Positions 1-9,961 of a stretch of DNA of 12,331 nt are shown here, in pieces (position 1 is the first letter of the stretch; each line of letters opens with the position of its first letter). Location: assembly GCA_021202325.1 (NCBI GenBank), contig JAJQDF010000139.1, positions 1-12,331 on the forward strand, written 5' to 3'. Made by a program: the position numbers and the translations under genes. The notes beneath the pieces were generated by a model. The model was not told the origin of the DNA. It searched no databases and saw nothing but the letters and a program-made list of their open reading frames with translations. This DNA comes from Clostridiales bacterium. GTDB taxonomy: Bacteria > Bacillota > Clostridia > Lachnospirales > Anaerotignaceae.

Positions 1-84
1 ATCAGAGGCCGGGACTGGTTTTATACAAAAACAAGGTTCTTAGTCAGCTTTAAAAATTTCCGAGAAATGTTAGGACGCTTTAAT

Positions 85-113
85 TTGACAAGAGGTTGAT
101 TTTAGTATATAAT
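85..113 (+). promoter_or_regulatory. Consensus sigma-A promoter for the bcd leader/operon
   Basis: A perfect -35 box, TTGACA (85-90), is separated by exactly 17 bp from a perfect -10 box, TATAAT (108-113). Transcription would start near 119-121, about 415 nt upstream of the bcd start codon. No comparable promoter is visible between here and bcd, so the transcript probably includes the whole structured leader. Bases 1-84 contain no gene or motif that I recognise. Confidence 0.85.
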
Positions 114-356
114 ATAATACGGTCGGCTTAAGTCTCAAAATGGAGACTGCAAAAGGCTTGGAACCGGCTTTGGTTTCAAAAAGAATACAGCAATTTGTTA
201 AAATTATTGCAATTATTTTTGGTAAAATTGTTTAAAAAATGTCAAAAATGCAGTTTGGAATATAAAAGTTCGTTAAATTGCCGTTTTTGGCACGGGAATT
301 GCTGTAAAGCAACTTTTAAGTAACGGCAGTCGGCATGTGTAGTACGGCAGGCGCCA

Positions 357-506
357 TGCATGACTCAATCAAGTAAAGCATTCGTCATGCTAACCTCGAC
401 TCAAAGAGTCTCGGTTGGGCTTATCGCCCTATAAGCTAAAAACGTAACTTGCCTTCAGGTGAGTAAACTCCCCTTAGGCAATTACATTTTTATCTTGCAT
501 GACTCA
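357..506 (+). repeat. 11-nt direct repeat flanking the 3' domain of the bcd leader
   Basis: TGCATGACTCA occurs exactly at 357-367 and again at 496-506. A single complementary arm, GTCATGC (384-390), can pair with GCATGAC in either copy (358-364 or 497-503), so the two 7-bp helices exclude each other. Pairing with the first copy gives a local hairpin with a 19-nt loop. Pairing with the second closes a multi-helix domain around 391-496 that ends 17 nt before the SD. GACTCA also appears a third time at 398-403. Confidence 0.55.
444..496 (+). terminator. Terminator-like hairpin in the bcd leader (possible attenuator)
   Basis: GTAA (444-447) and TTGCCT (449-454), with one bulged C, pair with AGGCAA (476-481) and TTAC (482-485). 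An inner stem, 457-463 with 468-474, carries one T-C mismatch and a TAAA loop. The helix is followed directly by ATTTTTATCTT. The U-run is modest, so termination may be partial or conditional. It lies 50 nt upstream of bcd and could end a stand-alone RNA or attenuate the operon. Confidence 0.45.
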
Positions 507-534
507 TTATTATACAATATAGGAGGATTTTATA

Positions 535-1680
535 ATGGTTGGATTCAGTTTGACAAAAGAACAGATACTTCAGCAGCAATTATACAGAGAATTTGCTGAG
601 AATGAAGTAAAACCCAAAGCTGCTGAAATGGATGAGGCTGAGAAATTTGATGTTGGAATCATGGACAAGATGGCTAAATACGGCCTTCTCAGCATTCCTT
701 TCCCCAAAGAGGACGGCGGCGCAGGTGCAAGCGTTCTCTCTTATACACTTTGCATAGAGGAACTCGCAAAGGTTGATGCCAGCACAGCTACAGCTTGCTC
801 AGTACATACTTCTCTTTGCACAACTCTTATCGGAACATTCGGCACACCTTTCCAGAAGGAAAAATACTACAAACCCCTTGCAAGCGGACAGAAATACGGC
901 TGCTTCGGTTTGACAGAGCCCAATGCCGGTTCAGATGCTGCCGGTCAGCAGTCAACAGCTGTTAAGGAAGGCGACCACTACATTCTTAACGGTTCAAAAA
1001 TCTTCATCACAAACTCAGGTTTCTCGGATATCTTCGTAGTATTCGCTATGACAGATAAGTCCAAGGGAACAAAGGGTATCTCCGCTTTCATCCTTGAAAA
1101 GGGTATGCCCGGATTCACAGTAGGAAAAGACATCCCTCGTATGGGTATCAGAGCTGCTTCAAACTGCGAGCTTGCTTTTGACAACGTTATCATTCCTGAA
1201 GAGAACCTTATCGGAAGAGAAGGCGAAGGCTTCAAGATTGCTATGGCTACTCTTGACGGCGGACGTATCGGTGTTGCTGCTATCGCTCTTGGTATCGCTC
1301 AGGGCGCTATCAACGAAACAATTAAATATGTAGGCGAAAGAAAACAGTTTGGTAAGACAATCGGTTCATTCCAGAACACAAAGTTCGTTCTTGCCGGATT
1401 ACAGACAAAGGTTGACGCTTGCAGACTTCTTGTTTGGAGAGCTGCTTGTGCTAAAGACAACCACGAGCCCATTTCAACATATGCTGCTATGGCTAAGCTT
1501 GCTTGCTCAGACGTTGCCAACGAAACAGCAAGAGCTTGCGTACAGTTATTCGGCGGATATGGATATACAAGAGAGTATCCTATCGAAAGAATGATGCGTG
1601 ACGCTAAGATCACTGAAATCTATGAAGGAACATCAGAAGTTCAGAGAATGGTTATTTCAGGCGCAATGAAAGTTAAATAA
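535..1680 (+). CDS. bcd: Butyryl-CoA dehydrogenase (short-chain acyl-CoA dehydrogenase family)
   Basis: This cytoplasmic flavoenzyme interconverts crotonyl-CoA and butyryl-CoA in butyrate formation. Its 381 aa match the usual 379-383 aa of clostridial Bcd. The fold order is normal: an N-terminal helical domain; a middle beta domain with the FAD/substrate motif FGLTEPNAGSD (124-134); and a C-terminal helical domain with ERKQFGK (268-274) and the catalytic-base motif EIYEGTSE (361-368). In that motif Glu364 corresponds to the glutamate that removes the alpha proton in short- and medium-chain dehydrogenases. The ATG at 535 follows a perfect AGGAGG (521-526) by 8 nt. The gene lies immediately upstream of etfB and etfA, as in clostridial bcd operons, but crt, hbd and thl are not adjacent. 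Codon use is strongly biased (Ile mostly ATC), which suggests high expression. Substrate length cannot be proved from sequence; the Etf genes make butyryl-CoA most likely. Confidence 0.93.
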   Translation: MVGFSLTKEQILQQQLYREFAENEVKPKAAEMDEAEKFDVGIMDKMAKYGLLSIPFPKEDGGAGASVLSYTLCIEELAKVDASTATACSVHTSLCTTLIGTFGTPFQKEKYYKPLASGQKYGCFGLTEPNAGSDAAGQQSTAVKEGDHYILNGSKIFITNSGFSDIFVVFAMTDKSKGTKGISAFILEKGMPGFTVGKDIPRMGIRAASNCELAFDNVIIPEENLIGREGEGFKIAMATLDGGRIGVAAIALGIAQGAINETIKYVGERKQFGKTIGSFQNTKFVLAGLQTKVDACRLLVWRAACAKDNHEPISTYAAMAKLACSDVANETARACVQLFGGYGYTREYPIERMMRDAKITEIYEGTSEVQRMVISGAMKVK

Positions 1681-1702: not shown

Positions 1703-2494
1703 ATGAAAATTATTGTATGTATAAAACAGGTTCCGGATACATCGGAAGTTAAACTTGATCCTAAGACAAACACACTTATAAGAGAAGGCGTACCCAGCAT
1801 CATCAACCCCGATGACAAGAGCGGTATTGAAGCTGCTTTAAGAATCAAAGAGCAGGTTGGCGGTACAGTTACTATCGTCTGCATGGGCCCTGCACAGGCT
1901 GACGTTGCTATCAGAGAAGCACTCGCTATGGGATGCGACGACGCAGTTCTTATTTCAGGCAGAGAGTTCGGAGGTTCCGATACACTCGCTACATCCACAA
2001 TCATTGCTGCCGGCATCAAGACACTTGACTACGACCTTATCATCACAGGACGTCAGGCTATCGACGGAGACACAGCACAGGTTGGTCCTCAGATCGCTGA
2101 GCATCTTGGACTTCCCCAGGTTTCATACTGCGAGGATATCGAGGTTGAGAGCGAAAACAGCCTTATCGTTAAGAGACAGTATGAAGACAGATATCAGAAG
2201 ATCAGAGTTAAAACTCCTTGCGTACTCACAGCTCTTTCAGAGCTTGCTGAGCCCAGATATATGTCAGTAGGCGGAACAATCGACGCTTATGCTAAGGAAG
2301 TTAAGGTTCTTGGATTTGAAGAGCTTAAGGACAAGCTCAATCCTGAACATATCGGACTTAAAGGTTCACCCACAAACGTTATTCAGTCATTCACAAAGCA
2401 GGCTAAGGGCGCAGGAACAGTTGTAAAAGACGTTTCTCCTGATGAAGCTGTTAAGGCTATCATCGCTAAACTTGAAGAGAAATATATTATTTGA
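1703..2494 (+). CDS. etfB: Electron transfer flavoprotein beta subunit
   Basis: This is the beta subunit of the EtfAB heterodimer that exchanges electrons with Bcd. At 263 aa it is close to the family norm. The protein opens with the typical MKIIVCIKQVPDTSEV and carries the nucleotide-binding segment GREFGGSDTLATS (86-98) and TGRQAIDGDTAQVGP (115-129), followed by the EtfB signature region KRQYEDRYQKIRVKTP (157-172). In the known bifurcating clostridial enzymes EtfB holds the second FAD that accepts hydride from NADH; membership of that group is inferred from the bcd context, not proved. The ATG is preceded by GGAGGGAG (1685-1692) with a 10-nt gap. The gene begins 22 nt after bcd, and its TGA (2492-2494) lies 17 nt before the chosen etfA start. 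Confidence 0.95.
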   Translation: MKIIVCIKQVPDTSEVKLDPKTNTLIREGVPSIINPDDKSGIEAALRIKEQVGGTVTIVCMGPAQADVAIREALAMGCDDAVLISGREFGGSDTLATSTIIAAGIKTLDYDLIITGRQAIDGDTAQVGPQIAEHLGLPQVSYCEDIEVESENSLIVKRQYEDRYQKIRVKTPCVLTALSELAEPRYMSVGGTIDAYAKEVKVLGFEELKDKLNPEHIGLKGSPTNVIQSFTKQAKGAGTVVKDVSPDEAVKAIIAKLEEKYII

Positions 2495-2511
2495 TGAGGG
2501 GTGAACTTAAA

Positions 2512-3516
2512 ATGAGTAAAGATGTATATGTAATTGTAGAACAGAGAGACGCAAAAGTTCAGAAAGTCGGAGTTGAGCTTATCGGCGAGGCTACAAAGCT
2601 TGCTGCTGACTTAGGCGAAAAAGTTGTTGCTGTTATCATCGGTGCTAACGTAGCAGGAAGAGCACAGGAGCTCATTGCTTACGGCGCTGACAAAGTTGTT
2701 ATAGTTGATGATCCCATGCTTGAGAAATATGCTACAGAGCCCTATGCAAAGGCTGTTGCAGCTGTAATCAGAAACTATGATCCTAATATCGTTCTTTTCG
2801 GAGCTTCTTCAATCGGCCGTGACCTTGCTCCCCGTGTATCAGCAAGAGTTCATACAGGACTTACAGCTGACTGCACAAAGCTTGCTATCGATCCCGAGAC
2901 AAAGCTTCTTAACATGACACGTCCTGCATTTGGCGGTAACATCATGGCTACTATCATCTGCAAAAACCACAGACCTCAGATGGCTACAGTACGCCCCGGC
3001 GTTATGGCAGCACTTGCTAAAGACGAAACAAGAACAGGCGAAGTTGAGACATTCAAGGTTGACTTCGTACCTGCTGATATGAACGTTGAAATCATCGAAG
3101 AAGTTAAGGCTTCCAAGAAGATTGTTGACATTACAGACGCTAAGATCCTTGTATCAGGCGGACGTGGTATCGGCGGACCTGAATTCCTTCCTGTACTTCA
3201 AGAGGCTGCTGATGTTCTCGGCGGTATCGTTTCAGGAACAAGACCTGTTATCGAAGCCGGCTGGCTTGAAAAAGAGCGCCAGGTTGGACAGACAGGTAAG
3301 ACTGTTAGACCTAACCTCTACCTTGCTTGCGGTATCTCAGGTGCCATCCAGCACGTTGCAGGTATGGAAAGCTCAGAGGTTGTTATCTCCATCAACAAAG
3401 ATGACAACGCAGCTATCTTCGGCGTATCAGACCTTGGTGTAGTTGGAGACGTTAAGGTTATCCTTCCTAAACTCATTGAGGCTATCAAGAAAGTTAAAGA
3501 AGAGAAAATGAACTAA
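2512..3516 (+). CDS. etfA: Electron transfer flavoprotein alpha subunit
   Basis: EtfA provides the FAD that delivers electrons to Bcd. The start at 2512 (MSKDVYVIVEQ) is chosen because AGGGGTG (2496-2502) sits 9 nt upstream; an in-frame TTG at 2491 and ATG at 2494 would overlap etfB and lack an SD. The 334-aa product has the usual length with no extra N-terminal ferredoxin domain. The C-terminal FAD domain shows VSGGRGIGG (214-222), SGTRPVIEAGW (241-251), RQVGQTGKTVRP (256-267) and the alpha-subunit signature LYLACGISGAIQHVAG (269-284), then SINKD (293-297). The gene ends the operon, with a strong terminator 22 nt after its stop. Together with bcd and etfB it probably forms the NADH/crotonyl-CoA/ferredoxin bifurcating complex; that last step is inference. 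Confidence 0.95.
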   Translation: MSKDVYVIVEQRDAKVQKVGVELIGEATKLAADLGEKVVAVIIGANVAGRAQELIAYGADKVVIVDDPMLEKYATEPYAKAVAAVIRNYDPNIVLFGASSIGRDLAPRVSARVHTGLTADCTKLAIDPETKLLNMTRPAFGGNIMATIICKNHRPQMATVRPGVMAALAKDETRTGEVETFKVDFVPADMNVEIIEEVKASKKIVDITDAKILVSGGRGIGGPEFLPVLQEAADVLGGIVSGTRPVIEAGWLEKERQVGQTGKTVRPNLYLACGISGAIQHVAGMESSEVVISINKDDNAAIFGVSDLGVVGDVKVILPKLIEAIKKVKEEKMN

Positions 3517-3538: not shown

Positions 3539-3570
3539 AAGGACGTCCTACGGGGCGTCCTTTCTTTATT
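3539..3570 (+). terminator. Intrinsic terminator of bcd-etfBA
   Basis: AAGGACGTCC (3539-3548) pairs with GGGCGTCCTT (3553-3562), giving a 10-bp stem with one G-U. It is capped by a TACG (UNCG-type) tetraloop closed by C-G, a very stable loop. The run TTTCTTTATT follows. It lies 22 nt after the etfA stop and should end the operon efficiently. Confidence 0.9.
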
Positions 3571-3783: not shown

Positions 3784-3904
3784 GAGGAATTTATTTCCGA
3801 AAGTGTCAAGGCATAGGAAAATGATAATGCAAAAGCAAAAGTTTCTTTGGAACTTTTGCTTTTGCCTCCGCAAATAAGCTGAAATCTCCCAAAGATTTCA
3901 GCTT
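3784..3904 (-). repeat. Structured intergenic repeat, copy B (inverted)
   Basis: Read on the minus strand this aligns end to end with copy A. The 12-bp hairpin (3876-3887 with 3893-3904) has loop TTGGG on this strand; GCGGAGG lies at 3865-3871; the second hairpin is a perfect 15-bp stem (3829-3843 with 3851-3865) that keeps the core AAAAGTTCC and AACTTTT; and the end block TCGGAAATAAATTCCTC (3784-3800) matches copy A at 15 of 17 positions. Outer stem sequences differ from copy A on both arms, so pairing is preserved. A mobile palindromic (MITE/REP-like) element or RNA element is possible. Confidence 0.7.
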
Positions 3905-7240: not shown

Positions 7241-8095
7241 GTGAGTACTTTGAACGGAACTTTATATCTGTGCGCCACGCCCATAGGAAACCTGGGGGAC
7301 ATGACGTTAAGGGTAATAGAAATATTGAAAAATGCGGACATAATCGCCGCCGAGGATACGAGAAACACAATTAAGCTTCTGAACCATTTTGATATAAAAA
7401 CGCCGATGACAAGCTATCATCAGCACAATATGGACACAAAGGGCCCGGCACTCATTGAGAAGCTGAAGGAGGGCAAGAACATTGCCCTTGTCACCGATGC
7501 CGGAATGCCGGGAATATCCGATCCCGGTGAGGACATGGCAAAACGCTGCCGTGAGGAAGGGATACCGGTCACAATAGCTCCCGGGGCATCTGCCGGAATA
7601 TCGGCGCTGGTTCTTTCGGGCATGAATGCAAGACGGTATGTTTTCGAGGGATTTCTTCCTACTGACAAAAAGGAAAGACAAATGGTGCTTGAAAATCTGG
7701 AAAACGAAACGAGGACGACTGTGTTTTATGAGGCGCCCCACAGACTGACAGATACATTGGAGGCGCTTTATAAGGCCGCAGGGGACAGAGAAGCTGCCGC
7801 AGTCAGGGAAATTACAAAGCTTCATGAGGAGGTTAGGCACGATACGCTTTCAGGCCTTTTGGAATACTACAAGGAGAATCCGCCTAAGGGCGAGTTTGTG
7901 CTTGTTGTCGGCGGCAAGAGCGTCAGCGAGCTTAAGCAGGAAAAGATGGACAGCTGGCTTTCCATACCCATAGAGGAGCATATGAAAAGGTATACCGACC
8001 GGGGCATGACCGAAAAGGAAGCCATGAAATGCGTTGCCAAGGATAGAGGAACGACAAAGAGAGAAATATATGCATATCTGAATTGCAGTGAGTAG
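7241..8095 (+). CDS. rsmI: 16S rRNA (cytidine1402-2'-O)-methyltransferase
   Basis: RsmI (YraL/YabC in older naming) methylates the ribose of C1402 in the decoding centre of 16S rRNA. The 284-aa product has the tetrapyrrole-methylase-like fold with the family hallmarks GTLYLCATPIGNL (6-18), AAEDTR (36-41), VTDAGMPGISDPG (84-96) and APGASA (113-118). The C-terminal domain is complete. Start choice is uncertain: the GTG at 7241 lies 1 nt after the yabB stop without an SD, whereas an in-frame TTG at 7250 has GGGTGAG (7239-7245) just upstream and would give 281 aa beginning MNGTLYL. This is the last gene of the tmk operon, and no strong terminator is visible after it. Confidence 0.95.
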   Translation: MSTLNGTLYLCATPIGNLGDMTLRVIEILKNADIIAAEDTRNTIKLLNHFDIKTPMTSYHQHNMDTKGPALIEKLKEGKNIALVTDAGMPGISDPGEDMAKRCREEGIPVTIAPGASAGISALVLSGMNARRYVFEGFLPTDKKERQMVLENLENETRTTVFYEAPHRLTDTLEALYKAAGDREAAAVREITKLHEEVRHDTLSGLLEYYKENPPKGEFVLVVGGKSVSELKQEKMDSWLSIPIEEHMKRYTDRGMTEKEAMKCVAKDRGTTKREIYAYLNCSE

Positions 8096-9908: not shown

Positions 9909-9961
9909 AACAACAAAAAGCCCCTCAATTTGGGGCTTTTAGTTTACTGTTTTTTGTTGTT
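9909..9961. terminator. Bidirectional terminator between convergent genes
   Basis: AAAAGCCCC (9916-9924) pairs with GGGGCTTTT (9932-9940) around a 7-nt loop, giving T-rich flanks on both strands. An outer arm AACAACAAAAA (9909-9919) can alternatively pair with TTTTTGTTGTT (9951-9961), sharing the A-tract. It lies 16 nt past the HicB-like stop and 9 nt past the stop of the minus-strand flavoprotein gene, so it can end both transcripts. Confidence 0.85.

Follow-up and report, generated by a model that had tools for sequence, protein, structure and literature searches.

Predicted sigma-54 control and a probable inverted copy of a dispersed structured element upstream of a bcd-etfBA operon in Clostridiales

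Composite organization of the upstream region

The region from 85 to 534 upstream of bcd-etfBA, which the first-pass annotation had described as one structured leader, is probably a composite of a promoter region and an inverted copy of a separate element. We consider it likely that this copy, at 384-502, belongs to a dispersed, multi-copy element distantly like Clostridiales-1 and that the promoter region contains a sigma-54 promoter; the function proposed for the element, taken alone, is tentative. The window, i.e. the whole stretch of 12,331 bases that was analysed, corresponds to the complete contig G000:C307 of a genome that is 83% complete and divided into 313 contigs. The genus, whose order is probably Lachnospirales, was sampled with four genomes, G000-G003, G000 being the window's own. 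The following features are referred to below.

85-113, plus strand: TTGACA-17-TATAAT, a sigma-70-like promoter that may serve the operon for basal transcription
131-148, no strand assigned: palindrome AGTCTC-N6-GAGACT, predicted activator site (matrix core 132-147)
173-188, no strand assigned: weak second activator site about 42 bp on (matrix score 6.0, not significant alone)
287-303, plus strand: predicted sigma-54 promoter TTGGCACGGGAATTGCT (-24/-12), start predicted near 311-314
357-367, plus strand: TGCATGACTCA, first of two exact copies
384-502, minus strand: one copy of the structured element, read from 502 to 384 as P1, long hairpin, GGGC-GAUAA-GCCC hairpin, tandem-G.A hairpin and P1'
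496-506, plus strand: TGCATGACTCA, second exact copy
509-514, minus strand: TATAAT directly before P1, outside the interval from -21 to -25 that is usual in the family
521-526, plus strand: Shine-Dalgarno sequence AGGAGG of the first gene
535-1680, plus strand: bcd-like gene for an acyl-CoA dehydrogenase (454 bits to acryloyl-CoA reductase, its best NCBIfam match, under the cut-off of 640)
1703-2494, plus strand: etfB
2491-3516, plus strand: etfA

Predicted sigma-54 promoter, activator and activator sites

The sole match to the sigma-54 consensus TTGGCATNNNNNTTGCT (PMC6615313) on either strand of the 12,331-base window was found at 287-303, with the correct spacing. The same element, TGGCACGGTTTTTGCT, was present before bcd in G003, while no match was found before bcd in G001 and G002. 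Among the matches to a looser pattern, TGGCACGG-N4-TTGC(T) occurred nine times (one each in G000 and G001, two in G002 and five in G003). The DNA-binding domain of rpoN was detected in 50 of the 58 family genomes, including G000, and was not found in G003, although G003 has the same promoter. Five PF00158 matches were obtained in G000, and the protein encoded on C266 is a full activator with an AAA+ domain (224.8 bits), an HTH_8 domain (49.3 bits), a weak PAS domain and the GAFTGA motif; the protein on C3 lacks GAFTGA by reading, and the other three matches scored 28-35 bits. The PrdR match of the activator was 382.7 vs 795 bits. In G002 and G003 the activator gene is located directly before an isomerase operon, which has its own sigma-54 promoter and is followed by bcd-etfBA; in G000, contigs break at the place corresponding to the junction of the activator, the isomerase operon and bcd.

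To score activator sites, we used a matrix made from six palindromes picked by eye in front of the G001-G003 isomerase operons. The best site in the 12,331 bases was 132-147 (11.7), the next being a coding site at 7619 (11.5), and a related site before bcd in G003 scored 13.1. Scores as high were reached by 20 of 1000 Markov versions of the upstream region of the window (1-534) and by 7 of 1000 for G003. Both bcd sites scored below all six training sites (14.4-22.8), and their middle differs from that of the isomerase-operon sites. The predicted site lies 156 bp upstream of the sigma-54 promoter, and most activator sites in Clostridiales are reported to lie 100-250 bp upstream (PMC6615313). 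At the level of sequence, the consensus spacing, the presence of rpoN and of a GAFTGA activator, and a predicted activator site at the right distance give good support to the predicted sigma-54 control.

Control of bcd-etfAB operons of Clostridium through sigma-54 by CrbR, XcgR and YctR is described by Nie et al. (2019, PMC6615313), and since that work already assigns bcd-etfAB to sigma-54 activators, the control predicted here adds to a known kind. Those systems share with ours a sigma-54 promoter, upstream palindromes, a Fis-type activator and genes for an acyl-CoA dehydrogenase and Etf; in contrast, the activator found here is PrdR-like with a PAS domain, its site is of the GTCT..AGAC type and its partner operon encodes a nickel-pincer isomerase. 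We infer a scheme of protein binding and transcription starts in which RNA polymerase with sigma-54 would bind 287-303 and be switched on by the PAS-AAA+-Fis PrdR-like protein at 131-148, the resulting bcd-etfBA mRNA having a 5' UTR of about 220 nt, while a sigma-70 start near 120 may contribute basal transcription. A PrdR-like activator joined to operons for a nickel-pincer isomerase and for an acyl-CoA dehydrogenase with Etf would point to an uncharacterised fermentation route under sigma-54.

The isomerase operon (L188:3422-6148, minus strand; L189:2787-5508, plus strand; L193:186-2909, minus strand) encodes a 132-aa protein, a protein of about 340 aa and the nickel-pincer isomerase, which matched NPN_iso_grp_22 with 490 bits, over the cut-off of 400. 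No Pfam or NCBIfam family was matched by the 132-aa or the 340-aa protein. For the latter, 352 homologues were found, and any name shown among the 120 listed is hypothetical or uncharacterised.

The sigma-70-like promoter and the leader as a whole

The perfect TTGACA-17-TATAAT promoter that had been noticed at 85-113 is present, with 12/12 consensus positions. It is rare by chance: five such sites appeared in 1000 Markov windows (both strands) and one in 1000 Markov versions of 1-534 (plus strand), and upstream of its sites G003 has, by eye, an extended -10 without a -35. Transcription may start at 120; from the sequence, the start near 312 is better supported as the regulated promoter of the operon. 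The first-pass annotation was also correct in calling the leader structured, as 120-534 folds at -118.9 compared with a shuffle mean of -93.7 (sd 4.5, z -5.54) and none of 100 shuffles was as low. Fold energy alone nevertheless proves little, because all 30 of the 30 bcd leaders examined fold below their own shuffle mean (z -0.2 to -3.8).

When the individual hairpins were compared with the promoter map, the letters of the proposed GNRA-capped stem TTGCTGTAAAGCAA (299-312) were found to be in place, but they are the -12 element of the sigma-54 promoter plus its neighbours. Similarly, the complement forming the 7-bp helix 279-285/322-328 exists, although its arms flank the sigma-54 promoter at 287-303. 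The compact 3' domain placed at 358-503 was confirmed and sharpened to 384-502, its functional strand being most likely the minus strand rather than that of the leader.

The Rfam scan that had been recommended, performed on 60-560, gave no family near its cut-off, the best match in the leader being to a 339-nt Yersinia sRNA (E 0.0099, 17.3 bits vs a cut-off of 428), and nothing real was obtained for six other bcd loci. The structured RNA raiA of Clostridia had been suggested as a candidate; its Rfam model gave no match in the window, with thresholds as loose as E 5 to 10, which sets raiA RNA apart from the element described here.

A riboswitch, or a single 415-nt sensor leader made from the promoter at 85-113, is highly improbable. 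The perfect promoter and the fold (z -5.5) agree with such a leader, but a sigma-54 promoter and an activator site are nested inside it and no expression platform was seen, whether as a terminator or as masking of the Shine-Dalgarno sequence: the plus strand of 85-534 has no terminator-like site, and the Shine-Dalgarno sequence is unpaired in the minimum-energy fold, a weak local hairpin covering it in the centroid only. A conserved sense position before functionally related genes was not found either, the contexts being different, and a DNA search with the whole of 85-534 matched 13 of 98 genomes, its own included, with only short stretches beyond the window itself. In the bcd loci searched outside the genus (46 sources), the 3' domain was not found. 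Without an expression platform, and with relatives of the element adjoining unrelated genes, the proposal of a sensor for butyrate/flavin electron flow was left unsupported.

Other signals were noted in bcd leaders. Candidate Rex sites before bcd (11/14 matches) were rejected, as 23, 15 and 31 of 100 Markov versions reached that level for G000, G003 and G002, respectively. Seven leaders from another part of the family (L020, L022, L029, L032, L037, L040 and L043) have, roughly 180-215 nt upstream of bcd, a TTGACAA-like -35 within a Rex-like palindrome, for which the shuffle test was not significant. By eye, the G003 bcd leader (L188) shares with L192:640-800 hairpins around CTTCCTCA..GCGGAA and CTCCCG..TGCGACACGGGAG; located upstream of the tandem copies, these may be a second leader module.

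The structured element at 384-502

Two 146-nt tandem repeats, 74% identical, precede bcd in G001, and as a DNA query they matched one of 58 genomes, namely G001 itself. Their 126-nt cores showed 12 compensatory pairs and none broken among the 43 counted, in a hand-made structure that left out columns pairing in one copy only, which favours its 100%. A covariance model made from these two cores only, with the window copy excluded (R1), was run on 263,665 bases. It found 384-502 of the window with 44.0 bits (E 7.6e-9), and a further copy in G001, the third, scored 39.2 bits. An antisense match across the G001 copies reached 44.4 bits, a score that palindromy alone can yield. When the filters were switched off, the second-best match within the window had 13.0 bits. 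Over 10 kb of G003 the top match (10.6 bits, E 0.15) was immediately upstream of bcd and lacked the long helix, and over 10 kb of G002 it had 7.9 bits and was not at the leader. A family search with R1 under strict filters missed even the window copy. In the alignment of the four copies, 25 of 43 pairs had double changes, with 34 double-changed cells vs 12.3 in shuffles. The 3' domain is certainly a conserved structure and probably a minus-strand RNA element. The two exact copies of TGCATGACTCA, at 357 and 496, appear to be what is left of a second tandem copy in the window.

At E<=5, a model built from the four copies (R2) gave matches in 8 of 39 relatives, two of those outside the genus being below 1e-3. 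Within the order, 48 of 344 genomes matched at E<=0.1, the best outside the genus at 1.2e-13. In addition to the returned loci, 40 further regions were fetched, a subset of the matches listed. In alignment A5 (61 copies at E<=5e-4), 91.4% of the cells of the 60 distinct rows pair, compared with 56.4% in shuffles, and 793 cells are double-changed vs 240 (sd 13), while sliding the structure lowers pairing to 29-45%; these and the later counts come from model-fitted alignments, which lean towards their own structure. The number of pairs with a double change was barely above shuffles (37 vs 33.4, reached by 2 of 500), and RNAalifold on a MAFFT alignment (A6) recovered 12 pairs only. A second alignment of 46 copies, mainly from G047 and G325 and with a few shared with A5, gave 87.4% paired vs 57.9%, 496 double-changed cells vs 147, and 37 vs 31.4 pairs with a double change.

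We then scanned 16 genomes, the genus plus twelve picked for having hits, with a model built from A5 (R3), and 15 of them matched at E<=0.01. At least 27 copies were found in G047, at least 23 in G325, at least 19 in G181, at least five in G003, at least three in G001 and at least one in G000, with none in G002 at this threshold. Many intergenic copies per genome, as expected of a mobile repeat, are present. In a draw of 398 genomes across the phylum five matched, the window's own and four of the same order, with none outside the order. The element is not called by Rfam 15. Among the publications listed by our searches, none was recognised as describing it; the 3161 candidates of PMC8040213 may include it. 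Tandem arrays of two to four copies were observed at G181:C75:9885-10342, G051:C174:525-748 and G001:C40:802-1200.

Functional strand of the element

The four genus copies alone left the strand undecided. In bcd-sense letters, two-by-two symmetric loops were UC/UC in 51 of 69, equivalent to tandem GA/GA on the other strand, and single mismatches under Watson-Crick-only folding were A.C 32, G.U 8 and C.U 35. For 103 distinct copies read on the strand opposite bcd the mismatches were G.U 56, A.C 14 and A.G 41, with lower energy in 93, and ordinary folds were steadier on that strand for 57 of 61 copies. A model-guided census of 57 copies outside bcd leaders had given G.U 50 and A.C 39 in bcd-sense letters, and we replaced it by the Watson-Crick-only folding because its alignment model favours bcd-sense G.U. 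All 13 overlaps of RF01699 were on the strand opposite to R2 and R3. On account of the mismatches, the G.A loops, the fold energy and the sense of RF01699, we read the element on the minus strand of the window, its functional strand being most likely opposite to bcd.

Anatomy, promoters and gene context

In its own sense, the consensus runs ..A(U/C)(G/A)AG, P1 CC(A/G)UGC, a long hairpin usually tipped GCUUGC, AUA and GGGC-loop-GCCC, followed in the 3' part by A(C)CGAG-hairpin-CGAGGU, P1' and CGNAA. The long hairpin of the window copy ends in UUUA where the family has CUUG. A perfect TATAAT within 32-14 nt before the core was found in 18 of 102 copies, all of them at 21-25 nt (1.5 expected for the stretch); nine of these were among 22 copies of G047, where a run like GGTATAATRTTCACGAAAGCAATGAG recurs, one among 21 of G325 and eight among 59 elsewhere. 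Matches at 5/6 were not in excess (19 vs 16.1). The window copy has no -10 at the family position and no terminator-like site after it on the minus strand, where a 10-of-12 promoter-like site was found at 556-527.

With respect to genes, 92 of 99 copies were outside ORFs of at least 200 aa. An upstream gene within 500 nt was in sense for 51 copies and antisense for 34, and 20 of the 51 sense genes end no more than 25 nt from the core; downstream genes of the 99 copies were in sense for 49, antisense for 26 (p 0.011) and unknown for 24. Ten neighbours were checked with NCBIfam: DnaK, DnaJ, phosphotransacetylase, acetate kinase, IF-1, EF-Tu, L4, PheS and FabG were above cut-off, and the tenth, flagellin, was below its cut-offs. 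In G047, one copy of the element has a 6S RNA gene beside it on the opposite strand (L276:389-578, minus strand; 60.8 bits, cut-off 46.4). Other copies lie near tRNA genes, a T-box and S10 and L10 leaders.

Comparison with Clostridiales-1 and dispersed palindromes

RF01699 (Clostridiales-1) overlapped 13 loci with 27.5-44.4 bits, all under the gathering cut-off of 48, in a scan of 75 sources, some covering the same place; the window, G001 and G003-leader copies tested gave no match. The overlaps were in the same sense as the element, with ends agreeing within a few nt in most loci. The two have in common the closing stem, the GCUUGC-tipped long hairpin and the AUGAG/CGAAU-type tandem G.A hairpin. 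In contrast, the element is about 120 nt long vs 166, contains the GGGC-loop-GCCC helix and has in the window the tip UUUA, and in two alignments, read by eye, the fourth helix of the Rfam model (GAUuGcGGGAG...) is deleted or much shortened. In Weinberg et al. (2010, PMC2864571), Clostridiales-1 is assigned to Clostridiales and human gut and entered as RNA 'y' and cis-regulatory 'n'.

Taking 384-502 as an independent ncRNA, as the first-pass annotation had offered, is right in kind, but the RNA would be on the opposite strand and is one copy of a dispersed Clostridiales-1-like family. Dispersed palindromes of the REP/MITE type are multi-copy, intergenic, arranged in tandem and often placed after stop codons. 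The element behaves in the same manner, and differs from them in having four helices, conserved loops, tandem G.A pairs, a strand bias and, in some copies, a fixed -10. REP is mentioned in PMC8040213.

Possible roles of the element

The reading that we rank first, and hold tentatively, is that of an order-wide family of mobile, multi-copy structured RNA that has Clostridiales-1 at its margin. Its members would serve housekeeping transcripts, at their ends, as a portable module for processing or stability, some copies having their own -10 and the window copy being inverted before a sigma-54 operon. The element would most likely spread as a DNA repeat and, in sense, would act on RNA processing or stability at transcript ends or between cistrons; its mobility and every RNA function are what we infer from its distribution and anatomy. 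Since the window copy is backwards, it could affect bcd only through the mirrored UTR fold or an antisense RNA, so that its strong fold might merely shield the UTR, or an antisense RNA might be expressed. Ranked second, as an unlikely but serious candidate, is a hairpin repeat that acts at the level of DNA, either REP- or MITE-like or one that a transposase recognises as ssDNA; the RNA fold would then be a by-product without RNA function. Such a repeat would account for the 27 or more copies in one genome, the tandem arrays, the location of 92 of 99 copies outside long ORFs in both orientations to their neighbours, and the closeness of copies to stop codons (within 25 nt for 20 of the 51 that have an upstream gene in sense). 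The element is also strongly palindromic, its models matching the other strand too, and one contig carries near-identical long hairpins at two places (L291 and L292). What opposes a pure DNA repeat is the strand asymmetry of mismatches and G.A loops, together with the -10 at fixed distance in 18 of 102 copies. The asymmetry argument is weakened because G.T is milder than A.C in DNA hairpins too.

An independent, trans-acting small RNA of the Clostridiales-1 kind with its own promoter, which in the window would be transcribed leftward from near the start of bcd, appears rather improbable to us. The 13 RF01699 overlaps in the same sense, the RNA 'y', cis-regulatory 'n' entry of Clostridiales-1 in PMC2864571, the -10 boxes in 9 of 22 G047 copies and, in the window, the minus-strand TATAAT at 514-509 and promoter-like site at 556-527 are consistent with it. 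However, no copy reached the RF01699 cut-off, G325 shows no -10 excess beyond 1 of 21, many copies directly follow stop codons, and no terminator-like site follows the window copy on the minus strand. Little probability is also given to a 5' UTR structure on the bcd strand that simply stabilises or insulates and is kept for the operon: the folding of 30 of 30 bcd leaders below their shuffle means, the 12 compensatory pairs of the G001 tandem copies before bcd and the weak reduced form in G003 are as such a structure would have it, but in other places the family shows no tie to bcd, the strand signal is opposite and G002 has no such structure. Under the portable transcript-end module, copies beside tuf, dnaK-dnaJ, pta-ackA, L4 and pheS should shape the mRNAs, or else the element would be a new class of repeat; in either case Clostridiales-1 would gain a wider family with testable habits, namely tandem arrays, proximity to stop codons and a partly fixed -10.

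Further observations on the operon

A second set of genes for an acyl-CoA dehydrogenase, etfB and etfA was found in the window's own genome on G000:C85 (L198:2547-5610, minus strand), its dehydrogenase being 54% identical to that of the window. Strong terminator-like hairpins, placed after etfA or between later genes, were located in the window at 3539-3562 (plus strand), 3829-3865 (minus strand) and 9916-9940 (both strands).
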